Of a stretch of 41,703 bases of DNA, positions 20,364 through 25,863 are shown piece by piece. The notes beneath the pieces are model-generated. The model saw only the letters and a program-made list of their open reading frames with translations, had not been told where the DNA came from and made no database searches. The position numbers and the translations under genes were made by a program. Source of the stretch: Phenylobacterium sp. (GTDB lineage: Bacteria > Pseudomonadota > Alphaproteobacteria > Caulobacterales > Caulobacteraceae); assembly GCF_016793285.1 (NCBI RefSeq), contig NZ_JAEUMO010000043.1:1-41703 (forward strand). The letters are read 5' to 3'. Numbering within the stretch: position 1 is the stretch's first letter; every line of letters starts with the position of its first letter.

Positions 20364-20388
20364 CTCGAATCTTGTCGCGGCGTCCCGA

Positions 20389-20428
20389 CTGTAAGATAGG
20401 GGCCCAAAAGCCCCGCTTCTGTACGATA
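20389..20428. repeat. direct repeat CTGTAMGATA in the bphO/ybaK divergent promoter region
   Basis: CTGTAAGATA (20389-20398) and CTGTACGATA (20419-20428) differ by one base and are 30 bp apart centre to centre, about three helical turns. GGGGC and GCCCC lie between them and could form a small hairpin. A shared operator for the divergent genes is possible but inferred. Confidence 0.35.
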
Positions 20429-20473
20429 CTCGACAGAGGCCGTTCGGTTCCAACCACGTTTCACGATTTCTCG

Positions 20474-20944
20474 ATGAGTCGAACGACGCCCGCCACGCTC
20501 GCCCTCGACCGCGCCGGCATCGCCTACACGCTGGCCGCCTACGACTATGACCCCGGGGCCGAACGCGTGGGGTTGCAGGCGGCCGAAGCGCTGGGCGCGC
20601 CGGCTGGCGAGGTCCTGAAGACGCTGATGGTGCGCGCCGACGGCAGGCCGGCGTGCGTGGTGCTGGCTTCGGACCGCGAGGTGGCGATGAAGAAGCTGGC
20701 CGCCGCCCTCGGCGCGAAGTCGGCCGAGATGATGAAGCCCGCCGACGCCGAGCGGATGACGGGCTACCGCGTCGGCGGCGTCAGTCCCTTCGGCCAGAAG
20801 CGGCCGGCGCCGACCGTCGTCGACGCCGATGCGGCGGCGCTCGCTCAGGCGTTCGTGAACGCCGGCCAGCGGGGCCTCCAGGCGCGCCTCGCCCCGGCCG
20901 ACCTCGTGCGCGTGCTCAGCGCGACGGTCGCGGCCGTCACCTGA
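20474..20944 (+). CDS. ybaK: YbaK/EbsC-family aminoacyl-tRNA deacylase (Cys-tRNA(Pro) type)
   Basis: A 156-residue protein with the YbaK fold. ATLALDRAGIAYTLAAYDYD is at the N-terminus. The family's conserved Lys lies in GEVLKTLMV, and VGGVSPFGQK matches the GGxSPxGxK motif near the active site. Members hydrolyse mischarged tRNA, chiefly Cys-tRNA(Pro). ATG 20474 matches family N-termini; the upstream frame extension does not. It diverges from bphO. Confidence 0.9.
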   Translation: MSRTTPATLALDRAGIAYTLAAYDYDPGAERVGLQAAEALGAPAGEVLKTLMVRADGRPACVVLASDREVAMKKLAAALGAKSAEMMKPADAERMTGYRVGGVSPFGQKRPAPTVVDADAAALAQAFVNAGQRGLQARLAPADLVRVLSATVAAVT

Positions 20945-22357: not shown

Positions 22358-22594
22358 TCAGGGCTCGGGGCGGCGCACAGCCTGGACGTTCAGGTGGTCG
22401 GGCCTCTGGCCGGTGATCTTGTATAGCAGGAGCCAGCCATGGATCGCCGCGGCGACGGGGCCGGGTATCGGCAGGCCGGCGAACCATCTGGAGACCGTCG
22501 AGCGGTCGACGTCCAACGCTTCGGCGAGACGGGACATCCAGCCCCGCTCGCCGAAGAGAAGGATCGCCGCGCGACGGAGCTCTTCGGCCGTCAT
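22358..22594 (-). CDS. small helix-turn-helix protein coupled to rsr
   Basis: A 78-residue protein, MTAEELRRAAILLFGERGW... It has a clear helix-turn-helix in RLAEALDVDRSTVSRWFAG, followed by PIPGPVAAAIHGWLLLYK. This resembles small phage- or plasmid-type DNA-binding regulators. Its ATG overlaps the stop of the TROVE gene (ATGA), so it is probably made with Rsr. Partner or operator is unknown; one candidate is the 17-bp palindrome that occurs twice in the adjacent non-coding array. Confidence 0.7.
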   Translation of the reverse strand: MTAEELRRAAILLFGERGWMSRLAEALDVDRSTVSRWFAGLPIPGPVAAAIHGWLLLYKITGQRPDHLNVQAVRRPEP

Positions 22595-23898
22595 GCGCCG
22601 CCTTGTGACACGAGTCCCTCGGACTCGCGGACGTAGCTCAGCACGGCCTCGGAGAAGCCGTCGATGTGGGTCCACCTGCCGTAGCCCACACCGTTCCGGG
22701 CGCTGGCGACGTTGACCATGTAGGCCTTCGCCGCCTTCGGATCCGGAACCCTGTCGTGCGACTGCTCGTCGGTGATGACGATCAGCCGGTCGTGCGCCAG
22801 GCGGTTCACCTGCTCGACGGCCTTGCCGAGCAGGGTCCCGCCATGCGGCTGCGACCGGACCACCGCATCCACCCCGGCCATGCCCCGGCGCGCCGGGACC
22901 TCCACCACCTGCTCCGAGAAGGTGAAGACCCGCACGTCGCCCGGGATGACGGACGCCAGCGTCGCCGCCGCGTCCATCCGGGTCAGGTCCGACCTGGCCG
23001 ACAGCTTCCAGTCCATCGAACCCGAAACGTCGACCAGCACGAGGGTGCGGCCGTCGAACACCGGGCCCTCAAGGACCGTCTCCATCAGCGCCTCGTCCAG
23101 CCAGCGCTCGAACCGCGGGGCGGCGCGCGCGGCGGCCACGTAGCGGAACGGGAGCACGCGCTGCGCGCCCCGGCGGGCCAGGATGGCCTCGGTGACGAGG
23201 GCCTCGTCGACGCCGGCCTGATCCATGTTGCGGAGGTTCCGCAGCAAGGCCAGGTAGCCCAGCTTCCGCTCGGCCAACAGGCGTTCGAACGTGGCCTTCC
23301 TGTCGGCGCCGCCCGATAGGGCGACCTCCCAGGTGTCCGGAGACACCAGGGTGCGGTCGGCCACGCCCCTCCACAGCGCCGCCTGCGCCTCGTCGGCCGG
23401 CCTGGCGTGGACCAGGAACAGCACGTCGCGCAGCTTCACCGGGCCGTCGCGGTCGTACTTCGCCAGTTGGTAGGCGTCGAACTTCGCGAAGGCGGCGGCG
23501 AGGCCCCGCTTCATCTGCTTGGAGAGCGGCCGCTTGCCGTTCCGCCAGTAGATGGCCAGGAGCTCGGTCATGTCGTCGGCGCGCTGGATCACGCGTTCGA
23601 GGGTCGGCGCGACCAGCGGCCCACCATGGCGGATCAGCCCCACGAGCAGCATCAGCGGCGCGTGGCGCAGGTTGAAGCGCTCGCGCGCCTCCACCGCCAG
23701 GTCGGCGAGGACCTGCGGGGCGACTTCCATCGCGAGCGCCGCGATGCGGTCGGCGATGGTCTGGCCGTCCTCGTAGAACTCGGTCTCCCAGAGCAGGCAC
23801 GACAGCACCGAGCGGCGCAGAGCCTGCTCGGCGGTCAGCACCGCGGTCGGGGCGCCCTCATGGGTGCGCGGGCGCTGCGCAAAGATGTTCAGACGCAT
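22591..23898 (-). CDS. rsr: TROVE-domain protein Rsr (bacterial Ro60 orthologue)
   Basis: A 435-residue protein. Residues 1 to about 275 form the TROVE helical-repeat ring (WETEFYEDGQTIADRI, ARERFNLRHAPLMLLVGLIR, LAIYWRNGKRPLSKQMKRGL). A vWA-like domain follows with the MIDAS motif DVSGSM (290-295), a later Thr in HGGTLLG, and ITDEQSHD. Ro proteins bind Y RNAs and misfolded RNA ends; in Deinococcus, Rsr uses a Y RNA to gate PNPase. This copy is shorter than the Deinococcus protein (about 530 residues). It lies downstream of rtcB and the predicted Y RNA array, and its ATG is 32 bases after the last predicted stem. Confidence 0.93.
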   Translation of the reverse strand: MRLNIFAQRPRTHEGAPTAVLTAEQALRRSVLSCLLWETEFYEDGQTIADRIAALAMEVAPQVLADLAVEARERFNLRHAPLMLLVGLIRHGGPLVAPTLERVIQRADDMTELLAIYWRNGKRPLSKQMKRGLAAAFAKFDAYQLAKYDRDGPVKLRDVLFLVHARPADEAQAALWRGVADRTLVSPDTWEVALSGGADRKATFERLLAERKLGYLALLRNLRNMDQAGVDEALVTEAILARRGAQRVLPFRYVAAARAAPRFERWLDEALMETVLEGPVFDGRTLVLVDVSGSMDWKLSARSDLTRMDAAATLASVIPGDVRVFTFSEQVVEVPARRGMAGVDAVVRSQPHGGTLLGKAVEQVNRLAHDRLIVITDEQSHDRVPDPKAAKAYMVNVASARNGVGYGRWTHIDGFSEAVLSYVRESEGLVSQGGA

Positions 23899-23930: not shown

Positions 23931-24066
23931 CCGGATCGGGGAACGGGCGAGAACGCCTAGCCCTGCCTCCGGCCCCGAGGGGCCTTCAGTCAGGGTGCAG
24001 GACTCGAACCCGCCAGGCCTTGCAGCCGCACCATCGAAGGAATCGTCCTCTGCGCCACCGATCCGG
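23931..24066 (-). ncRNA. Y RNA-like element 4 with T arm, in the rsr leader
   Basis: The outer stem is CCGGATCGG (24066-24058) with CCGATCCGG (23939-23931), nine perfect pairs. TGGC-GCA follows the 5' strand and GTTCC precedes the 3' strand, the same bulges as in unit 1. GAGGACG (24050-24044) pairs with CGTTCTC (23955-23949). A canonical T arm (24013-23997, loop TTCGAGT) follows. An acceptor-like stem CCCTG/CAGGG is extended by the hairpin at 23971-23984. No clear D arm is present, so the tRNA mimicry is incomplete. It ends 32 bases before the rsr ATG. Confidence 0.65.
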
Positions 24067-24113
24067 ATCGCCGGCGCCCGAGGGCGCCAACGGCGCCTTC
24101 TCTCTAACAGCTT

Positions 24114-24130
24114 CGTTGCATTGTGCAACA
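24114..24130 (-). promoter_or_regulatory. 17-bp palindromic motif, copy 2 (upstream of Y RNA-like element 4)
   Basis: On the plus strand this is CGTTGCATTGTGCAACA, one base different from copy 1. TTGCAC then a 16-base gap and TAGAGA on the minus strand would be the matching promoter pair. The motif lies 48 bases before the stem of element 4, close to the 41 bases between copy 1 and Y RNA 1. Confidence 0.5.
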
Positions 24131-24135
24131 CTAAA

Positions 24136-24308
24136 GATGGGTCATCTCCGGGGAATATTCGACCTCGGGAGGCGCTTCCGCCGACGGGACCGACCGCCGG
24201 ACCTCGCTTCCTCCCGCCGACCGCTGCGTGTGGTCGGACGGGATTGGCCTGGCCGCCTTCTTGGGAGGCGATGAACCCGAACTCTGTCGCCACCGGAGAT
24301 GACACATC
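24136..24308 (-). ncRNA. Y RNA-like element 3
   Basis: The outer stem is GATG-T-GTCATCTCCGG (24308-24293) with CCGGAGATGAC-C-CATC (24151-24136): 11 perfect pairs, a single mismatch and 4 more pairs. UGGCG follows the 5' strand and AUUCC precedes the 3' strand. Inner helices CGAC/GTCG and TTCGGG/CCCGAG continue it. The 173-nt unit contains internal hairpins (for example CCGACC/GGTCGG) but no T-arm motif. Confidence 0.55.
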
Positions 24309-24373
24309 GACGCCACATACCTCCGAGGCGGAGCCCACGCAGGACTCATCCACAGAGAAATGTAGCGCTTTCA

Positions 24374-24446
24374 GACATCAGGGAATGAGGGATCGCGGCC
24401 GTCCTTCGACCAAAACGATGAAGCCGCACTCGACGCCACTGACATC
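24374..24446 (-). ncRNA. Y RNA-like element 2 (no tRNA module)
   Basis: The outer stem is GATGTCAG (24446-24439) with CTGATGTC (24381-24374), eight pairs including two G-U. UGGCG follows the 5' strand and AUUCC precedes the 3' strand, as in the other units. An inner stem TGCGGC/GCCGCG encloses a loop containing GGTCGAAGG. The 73-nt unit starts two bases after unit 1 ends. It has no T or D arm. Weakest stem of the four. Confidence 0.4.
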
Positions 24447-24448
24447 AC

Positions 24449-24566
24449 ACGCCGGGGAACTGGCGGAAGCACGGATCTGCTCTACCCCTGAGCTACACGA
24501 AGCTTGCGCTCCGCAGCGGGAGTCGAACCCGCGACACGATGTATGTGCTTCCTGCGCCACCGGCGT
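24449..24566 (-). ncRNA. Y RNA 1, YrlA-like with tRNA-mimic module
   Basis: Read 5' to 3' on the minus strand. The outer stem is ACGCCGG (24566-24560) with CCGGCGT (24455-24449); TGGC pairs with GCCA. A GCA bulge lies on the 5' side (24555-24553) and GTTCC on the 3' side (24460-24456). GGAAGCAC (24552-24545) then pairs with GTGCTTCC (24472-24465). Inside lies a tRNA-like module in permuted order. It has a T arm (24532-24516) with loop TTCGACT. An 8-bp acceptor-like stem (24515-24508 with 24503-24496) is closed by the GNRA loop GCAA. TA at 24495-24494 precedes a D arm (24493-24479) with loop AGGGGTA. This matches the architecture known for Salmonella YrlA. It lies between rtcB and rsr. Confidence 0.85.
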
Positions 24567-24606: not shown

Positions 24607-24623
24607 CGTTGCATTGCGCAACA
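24607..24623 (-). promoter_or_regulatory. 17-bp palindromic motif, copy 1 (upstream of Y RNA 1)
   Basis: On the plus strand this is CGTTGCATTGCGCAACA, with dyad arms GTTGC/GCAAC. On the minus strand TTGCGC followed 16 bases later by CTATCA could be a -35/-10 pair, placing transcription just ahead of Y RNA 1. It may be an operator, a promoter, or both. The second copy lies at 24114-24130. Confidence 0.5.
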
Positions 24624-24645
24624 ACAAACTTCAGCGCGCCCTACC

Positions 24646-25863
<1,218 letters not shown>

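Follow-up and report, generated by a model that had tools for sequence, protein, structure and literature searches.

The window analysed here is a 41,703-nucleotide stretch of a Phenylobacterium sp. genome (Caulobacteraceae, Alphaproteobacteria; contig NZ_JAEUMO010000043.1). On its minus strand, the gap from the stop of the RNA ligase gene rtcB (24646) to the start of rsr (23898), which encodes a Ro60-like protein, very probably holds four Y RNAs for the adjacent Rsr, built on one common handle and carrying different heads, with RNA repair as their most likely use. Comparative sequence analysis establishes the units themselves, their covarying helices, their association with rsr and, in many heads of the wider family, authentic tRNA anticodon loops.

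Four units with a common handle

The units follow one another at the positions where the initial annotation had placed four minus-strand stems (24566/24449, 24446/24374, 24308/24136 and 24066/23931):

24449..24566, minus strand: unit 1, YrlA-type Y RNA; outer stem of 7 bp (ACGCCGG/CCGGCGT)
24374..24446, minus strand: unit 2, short Y RNA; outer stem of 8 bp
24136..24308, minus strand: unit 3, long Y RNA-like, 173 nt; 16-nt outer arms, 94% complementary
23931..24066, minus strand: unit 4, T-arm hybrid; outer stem of 9 bp

In all four, the 5′ outer strand is followed by UGGCG, and RUUCC directly precedes the 3′ strand. A scan of the 41,703 bases on both strands for TGGCG...RTTCC with at least six consecutive flanking pairs returned only these four places; in first-order Markov shuffles, the average was 0.003 matches for the 747-base gap (3,000 shuffles) and 0.23 for the two strands of the window together (60 shuffles). 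The UGGCG/RUUCC signature described earlier for every unit is thus borne out by scan and shuffles, and the actual common element is larger. This handle consists of the outer stem, an asymmetric internal loop (UGGYGNN/GNYNRUUCC), a second covarying stem and then a conserved WCWUCG. Against 200 dinucleotide shuffles each, the minimum free energy of the fold was clearly low for unit 3 (z −4.1) and unit 1 (z −2.8) and weakly so for unit 2 (z −1.6) and unit 4 (z −1.3). Since folding energy is clearly low for units 1 and 3 only, the case for the array rests on conservation instead.

The four heads differ from each other. Unit 1 reads, from its sequence and the class alignment, as a circularly permuted tRNA core without an anticodon arm, composed of the following parts:

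within 24449..24566, minus strand: handle with loop UGGCGCA / GCCAGUUCC and inner stem GGAAGCAC/GUGCUUCC
24532-24516, minus strand: T-arm
24514-24497, minus strand: acceptor-like stem of 7 bp with a GCAA cap
24493-24479, minus strand: UA and D-arm, with the inner helix next

Rfam matches this unit to YrlA (RF02553) with 48.1 bits and an E-value of 4.4e-9, and it is also found in the whole genome (E 5.8e-6) by R1, a covariance model of the short class of units that was trained without unit 1 and whose E-values are rough. Unit 2 is reduced to the handle and a single small hairpin, UCG-UUUUGGU-CGA, the loop of which (24415-24409) equals the anticodon loop of the same genome's tRNA-Gln(UUG) and is closed by a 3-bp stem. 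The 131-nt interior of unit 3 contains neither a D- nor a T-arm and has GGCGGAAG near its 3′ side, as seen in 11 of the 12 aligned class members. Unit 4 combines the handle with a small 4-bp hairpin, a T-arm (24013-23997) and a further hairpin; it stops some 40 nt short of the rsr start codon, which places it in the rsr leader. The small hairpin was considered as an anticodon arm and rejected, because the aligned class shows a 4-bp stem with a short loop (83.3% of the hairpin's cells paired).

Of the tRNA-like domain known from YrlA, therefore, unit 1 has both D- and T-arm, unit 4 the T-arm only, and units 2 and 3 neither. The composition first proposed, one tRNA mimic, two short RNAs and one hybrid, holds for units 1, 2 and 4; unit 3 is a long RNA rather than a second short one.

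Arrays at rsr loci of bacteria and phages

One-per-species genomes searched with the Rsr of the window gave 53 loci, of which we counted the 51 with a tblastn match to rsr (L059 and L060 had none and were dropped; L001-L007, which are shorter copies of the window, of other loci or of L064/L065, were excluded from most counts). Units were called by a relaxed scanner that allows up to two mismatches in the two loop motifs and combines helix scores with a bonus for C[AT]TCG, at a threshold of 33; twelve runs on the shuffled window yielded nothing that scored 32 or more. In the 2.2 kb before rsr, at least one unit is present in 40 of the 51 loci and at least two in 38, the maximum being seven. Multi-unit arrays are thus common in this Rsr clade, which amends the initial annotation, where an array of the composition then proposed was expected to be unusual. 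On the rsr strand, these upstream segments contain 140 units (1.31 per kb over 106.8 kb), as against six in the remaining 322.9 kb, four of which form an array in L028 that does not adjoin rsr (L028:834-1741, 2.3-3.2 kb upstream), and a single unit in 429.7 kb of the other strand. Some counted loci are close relatives, and the counts are to that extent not fully independent. The array loci include Caulobacterales, Hyphomonadaceae, Bradyrhizobium, Acidobacteriaceae and one metagenome-assembled genome of Opitutia.

The search of related genomes that had been suggested as a check was made with the short-class model R1, and its matches go together with rsr. Of 99 family genomes sampled, seven have the gene; each of these seven has matches at E ≤ 0.05, 13 in total and all beside rsr, and the 92 genomes without rsr have none. 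A further six matches are weaker (E 0.10-0.70) and about as many as chance would give; they fall in five genomes without rsr and, away from the gene, in one genome that has it. Among 190 sampled genomes of the class, rsr was found in two (E ≤ 1e-20), and the same two gave R1 matches at E ≤ 0.05. Because three of the seven rsr-bearing family genomes, including that of the window, had contributed sequences to the training of R1, the 92 empty genomes are the independent part of this association. YrlA itself was not found at its gathering score in the loci of 16 relatives, where Rfam returned two tRNA matches only. One tRNA match (L024:3110-3172; 29.9 bits, threshold 29) sits inside the array region between called units and is perhaps part of a further unit.

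As the relaxed scanner rewards helices, which would make a covariation analysis circular, we selected units for that analysis by motif only and with no stem criterion: TGGYG, 13 bases, CWTC, and the nearest CGNNNRTTCC 35-200 nt further on. This gave 119 pairs in 41 loci, including the window, L064 and L065, of which 118 in 40 loci were analysed; the pair left out is a unit of L065, a locus in reverse orientation, and no pair is truly opposite to rsr. The 118 include the four units of the L028 array and one window match outside the array (about 27761, minus strand). Positions 2-7 of the outer stem pair in 114, 114, 110, 109, 100 and 80 of the 118 pairs of motifs, compared with means of 82, 70, 57, 55, 50 and 47 when partners are shuffled. 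At each of positions 2-8 of the inner stem, between 89 and 110 of the 118 are paired (shuffled 50-81), and as many as all six standard pair types occur. Formal counts for two of the classes agree with this. In the short class (26 sequences, chosen with helix scores), 83.9% of the cells are paired, against 56.6% in shuffles, with a covariation of 0.739 versus 0.221; in the unit 4 class (6 sequences), the values are 95.3% versus 85.7%, with 0 of 500 shuffles as high, and 0.427 versus 0.215.

For the viral side, we took the best 80 of at least 540 viral contig stretches that encode relatives of the window's Rsr; none of these loci had been used in finding the motif. All 96 units called in them lie no more than 2.2 kb upstream of rsr; the rest of that strand and the opposite strand have none. 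Among the 74 loci with at least 1.5 kb of upstream sequence, 43 have at least one unit, 25 have at least two, and in 31 the scan called none. Selection by motif only gave 105 pairs in 45 of the 80 loci, with none on the other strand and the same covariation result. Compensatory changes in the stems of homologous loci, the absence of which had been named in advance as grounds for giving up the Y RNA proposal, are accordingly found in bacterial and viral loci alike. Named phage records with units, at a threshold of 27, are CcrColossus (8 units), Gurke (4), Papperlapapp (5) and Xanthomonas phage 10KY502B (3), and two Brevundimonas phages carry a short unit with the same UUUUGGU loop as unit 2 of the window. 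Three of the four named records have an annotated tRNA gene that coincides with part of one unit (Gln, Ser, Thr; L221:2646-2713, L222:3269-3343, L223:3292-3359), and these annotations are probably misannotations.

Taken together, the covarying handle, its position, its co-occurrence with rsr and the replication in viral loci support the claim of the initial annotation that a multi-copy Y RNA array serves the adjacent Rsr. As expected of Y RNAs, the 5′ and 3′ ends of the units pair in a long stem that contains a conserved internal loop, and this loop would be their Ro site.

Head classes and anticodon loops

Simple rules for the recognition of tRNA arms were applied to 144 units (140 bacterial and the four of the window): 46 have both a T- and a D-arm, 31 a T-arm only, 4 a D-arm only and 63 neither. 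A hairpin of at least 5 bp with a GNRA cap occurs in 22 of 49 two-armed units, by a rough rule. Individual loci hold mixed head types rather than copies of one. In a minor class (L024:3650-3771, L032:3836-3959, L034:3497-3621 and L038:3377-3500), the handle is seemingly inserted in the D-loop of a tRNA-like head, which appears to be a second permutation site.

In many units, the segment right after WCWUCG forms a hairpin with a 7-nt anticodon-like loop. We examined this place in 151 units (L064 and L065 added), 147 of which have the CWUC motif, by scans that were restricted in position so as not to catch T-loops. A loop with Y32, U33 and R37 closed by at least 3 bp is present in 42 of the 147 units (shuffled mean 2.7, maximum 10; 500 shuffles). 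As a reference for exact matches, we took 69 real Caulobacterales tRNAs, 38 of them from the Phenylobacterium genome itself, which have 35 distinct anticodon loops between them. Exact 7-mers of this set occur in 26 of 147 units (shuffled mean 1.5, maximum 7; 2,000 shuffles), some of them from related loci (e.g. L033 and L037); the reversed loops gave 0 matches, and a search for the true loops at offsets 14-18 in place of 5-9 gave 3. Of the 26, 23 have two or more base pairs closing the loop (shuffled mean 0.29, maximum 4). Consistently, 19 of the 96 viral units carry an exact loop (shuffled mean 1.2, maximum 5; 1,000 shuffles; reversed loops 1), and 27 pass the hairpin rule (shuffled 2.0, maximum 7). 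The 69 rule-passing loops, bacterial and viral, represent 29 anticodons, with A34 only once. Most units have no anticodon loop, units 1, 3 and 4 of the window among them. Relatives of unit 3 in L008, L013 and L018 show the Trp-type CUCCAAA at the anticodon-loop place, with a 3-bp closure in L008 only.

Neighbouring genes and possible function

The array is accompanied by the following genes and elements, to which we add the Hen1 gene of a related locus:

22591..23898, minus strand: rsr, Ro60-like (TROVE ring and vWA, MIDAS-type DVSGS; Pfam, AlphaFold2)
24646..25863, minus strand: rtcB RNA ligase (Pfam RtcB, E 5e-134); the frame is open to 26022, and an internal Met was chosen as start
22358..22594, minus strand: small helix-turn-helix (HTH) protein; its start codon overlaps the rsr stop, and its HTH matches are below the curated cut-off
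24607..24628, minus strand: palindrome P1, TTGTTGCGCAATGCAACG, upstream of unit 1; direct repeat with P2
24114..24135, minus strand: palindrome P2, GTGTTGCACAATGCAACG, upstream of unit 4 and rsr
L010:5565-6953: Hen1_L/methyltransferase RNA-repair gene (Pfam)

In Pfam, Rsr shows TROVE over just 59 residues together with vWA-type matches. Its AlphaFold2 model (mean predicted local distance difference test score 87.4) matches the Ro60/Rsr structures 9kop, 9l5y, 2nvo and 1yvp, and the 13 best structural matches are all Ro60, Rsr or TROVE proteins, including the Thermus phage Ro60 (9l5y) and the Deinococcus Rsr (2nvo). The model thus predicts a Ro60 fold over most of the protein.

The possible involvement of RtcB proposed in the initial annotation holds in so far as rtcB adjoins the array here, yet the link is loose: rtcB is present in the examined flanks of 11 of 51 loci (L008, L013, L015, L017, L018, L020, L025, L026, L028, L030 and L045). 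Five loci without rtcB (L009, L010, L012, L029 and L049) have a Hen1_L/methyltransferase gene near rsr, and L037 has a 95-residue piece; the L010 call was made with Pfam and the others by tblastn. Nine further neighbouring open reading frames (L010, L022, L032, L036 and L040) revealed no common RNA-repair theme in Pfam, and neither rtcA nor rtcR was among the seven window reading frames run against Pfam, to which that search was limited. A gene for an aminoacyl-tRNA editing domain (tRNA_edit) lies at 20372-20944 on the plus strand, 1.6 kb past the rsr end of the cluster.

P1 and P2 have the form TTGTTGC-N5-GCAACAA and are its sole matches in the 4.49-Mb draft genome with two mismatches allowed. 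Caulobacterales relatives show a like palindrome followed, by eye, by a −10-like CTAT or TATC, and the two sites are likely promoter/operator elements, with the small HTH protein as their candidate regulator. Among 50 loci (L018 was excluded because its sequence breaks off within rsr), 15 have a small HTH gene directly after rsr; the palindrome is present in 14 of these 15 versus 3 of the 35 without the gene (Fisher p 1e-8, a value that ignores kinship). DriD, the SOS-independent DNA-damage activator of Caulobacter, was considered as the regulator and rejected, as its site as given in the part of the source surveyed (ATACGAC-N7-GTCGTAT; PMC12340889) is unlike the TTGC-N5-GCAA palindrome. A generic scan found no terminator-like site between units. 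Just past the rtcB stop, an inverted repeat with 12-nt arms (24585-24596/24631-24642, 92%) surrounds P1, and apparently the same arms are present in L008.

Y RNAs beside rsr, the tRNA mimicry of YrlA and the presence of Rsr or Y RNAs in phages are already known from the sources surveyed in part. YrlA (RF02553), encoded in rsr-yrlBA-rtcBA operons such as that of Salmonella, resembles unit 1 in its place beside rsr and rtcB, its end-to-end stem and its core of T- and D-arm. It differs in that the Rfam consensus has AUGCuu where unit 1 has UGGCGCA, and in that the window has, where YrlA and YrlB would stand, four units of four kinds, with anticodon loops in the family. The Deinococcus radiodurans Y RNA/Rsr/PNPase system (RYPER) is alike in its Rsr fold (2nvo) and in the noncoding RNAs beside rsr; there, according to the parts surveyed, Y RNA tethers Rsr to PNPase (PMC7790460, PMC8394870). 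Listeria phage CKA15 is described, in what we surveyed of the report, as having three highly transcribed regions less than 2 kb from an Rsr homologue that were suggested to be Y RNAs (PMC12282133). Phages with the present Rsr clade carry arrays of this kind, whereas the surveyed parts of the accounts of jumbo-phage TROVE/Rsr loci (PMC7824862) and of CKA15 (PMC12282133) do not mention a common handle, classes or anticodon loops. The literature surveyed in part, the main Y RNA papers not included, contained neither arrays of a common handle with differing heads nor Y RNA anticodon loops.

In our proposal, two palindrome-controlled promoters would drive transcription of the units, which would be processed out of longer transcripts, and Rsr would bind each of them through the handle. 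The different heads would then offer several alternative partners to one Rsr ring; vertebrate Ro60, likewise, is one ring protein that has several Y RNAs with a common stem site. The tRNA-like heads would be handled by tRNA-acting enzymes (PNPase, modification enzymes, anticodon nucleases or ligases) and could thereby work as tether, bait or sensor. RNA repair, of which rtcB or hen1 is the sign at some loci, would be the most likely setting. On this reading, Rsr would load alternative Y RNAs, and those with an anticodon loop would perhaps serve RNA repair as tRNA bait.

Several observations weigh against the view that all four units are Y RNAs for Rsr in an RNA-repair setting. The YrlA match of unit 1 stays below the gathering score of 69; at E ≤ 1, Rfam matches none of units 2-4, and R1 misses units 3 and 4 of the window at the same cut-off. 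Only unit 2 of the window units has an anticodon loop, and on a stem of just 3 bp. Outer-stem position 10 pairs no better than chance (47 of 118, shuffled 43.5), and the generic scan found no sigma-70-like promoter. Near rsr, rtcB is present in a minority of loci. Eleven of the 51 loci (L023, L025, L026, L028 and L052-L058) have no unit, by the scanner, in the 2.2 kb before rsr; with the more distant L028 array taken into account, ten are unit-free, although L025 and L026 contain motif-only pairs, and the distant loci L052-L058 may use other RNAs.

Other readings of the region differ widely in what they can explain. It is exceedingly improbable that the units are chance inverted repeats or degenerate tRNA genes: the tRNA annotations in three of the four phage records would fit, but shuffles, covariation and co-occurrence with rsr contradict it, and ARAGORN finds no tRNA in the window. 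The stems might instead be cis-regulatory leader elements by which the rsr mRNA is autoregulated, rather than separate RNAs. In its favour, the window and 11 of the 40 other array-bearing loci have a last unit that ends 34-47 nt upstream of the rsr start. We consider it unlikely, as units 1-3 follow their own palindrome and stand as far as about 0.67 kb upstream of that start, other arrays extend to 1.9 kb upstream and unit 1 matches YrlA.

Two further explanations concern what Y RNAs of this kind would do. All units might have one job, the tethering of Rsr to PNPase, with heads reflecting drift and copy number reflecting dosage. Such a tether is the role described for the bacterial Y RNA of Deinococcus in the sources surveyed in part (PMC7790460, PMC8394870), and the 46 of 144 units with both arms would suit it; the 63 with neither arm do not, given that the short class covaries on its own, as does the T-arm-only class of unit 4, and loci are mixtures of head types. 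We therefore hold a single job to be possible but rather doubtful. About equally tentative is the idea that the anticodon heads are decoys or sensors for anticodon nucleases, cut in place of tRNAs or reporting on them, and mended by RtcB or Hen1. The loops are exact and cover many isoacceptors, rtcB or hen1 is near rsr at some loci, and anticodon loops recur in phage units; phage tRNAs that evade host tRNA-cutting defence are known (PMC11455837, surveyed in part). On the other hand, most units have no anticodon loop, and no nuclease gene was identified at array loci, where no systematic search for one was made. The Salmonella study, in the part surveyed, proposed that the tRNA-like domain could compete for an anticodon nuclease and detected no YrlA fragments. 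The anticodon loops found here make this competition more attractive in the present family, without proving it.

On the reading that we prefer, one handle with different heads serving one Rsr, the recurrence of arrays in bacteria and phages suggests that the RNAs form a kit of interchangeable tools for dealing with RNA damage. With considerable reservation, such a cassette might be seen as a set of tRNA baits directed at enzymes that cut anticodons. In it, the constant handle would be joined each time to another piece of tRNA, either the permuted core or no more than an anticodon hairpin, with many anticodons across the family; bacteria would use it together with RtcB or Hen1 repair, and phages against the tRNA-cutting defences of their hosts. 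Some phage tRNA annotations are suggested to be pieces of Y RNAs, and the handle motif can be used for finding many more. The constant handle with its varied heads provides a clean comparative system for asking which head brings which partner to Rsr, and the exact anticodon loops suggest that Ro proteins may be connected, in a concrete way, with both RNA repair and tRNA-cutting conflicts, in phages as well as bacteria.
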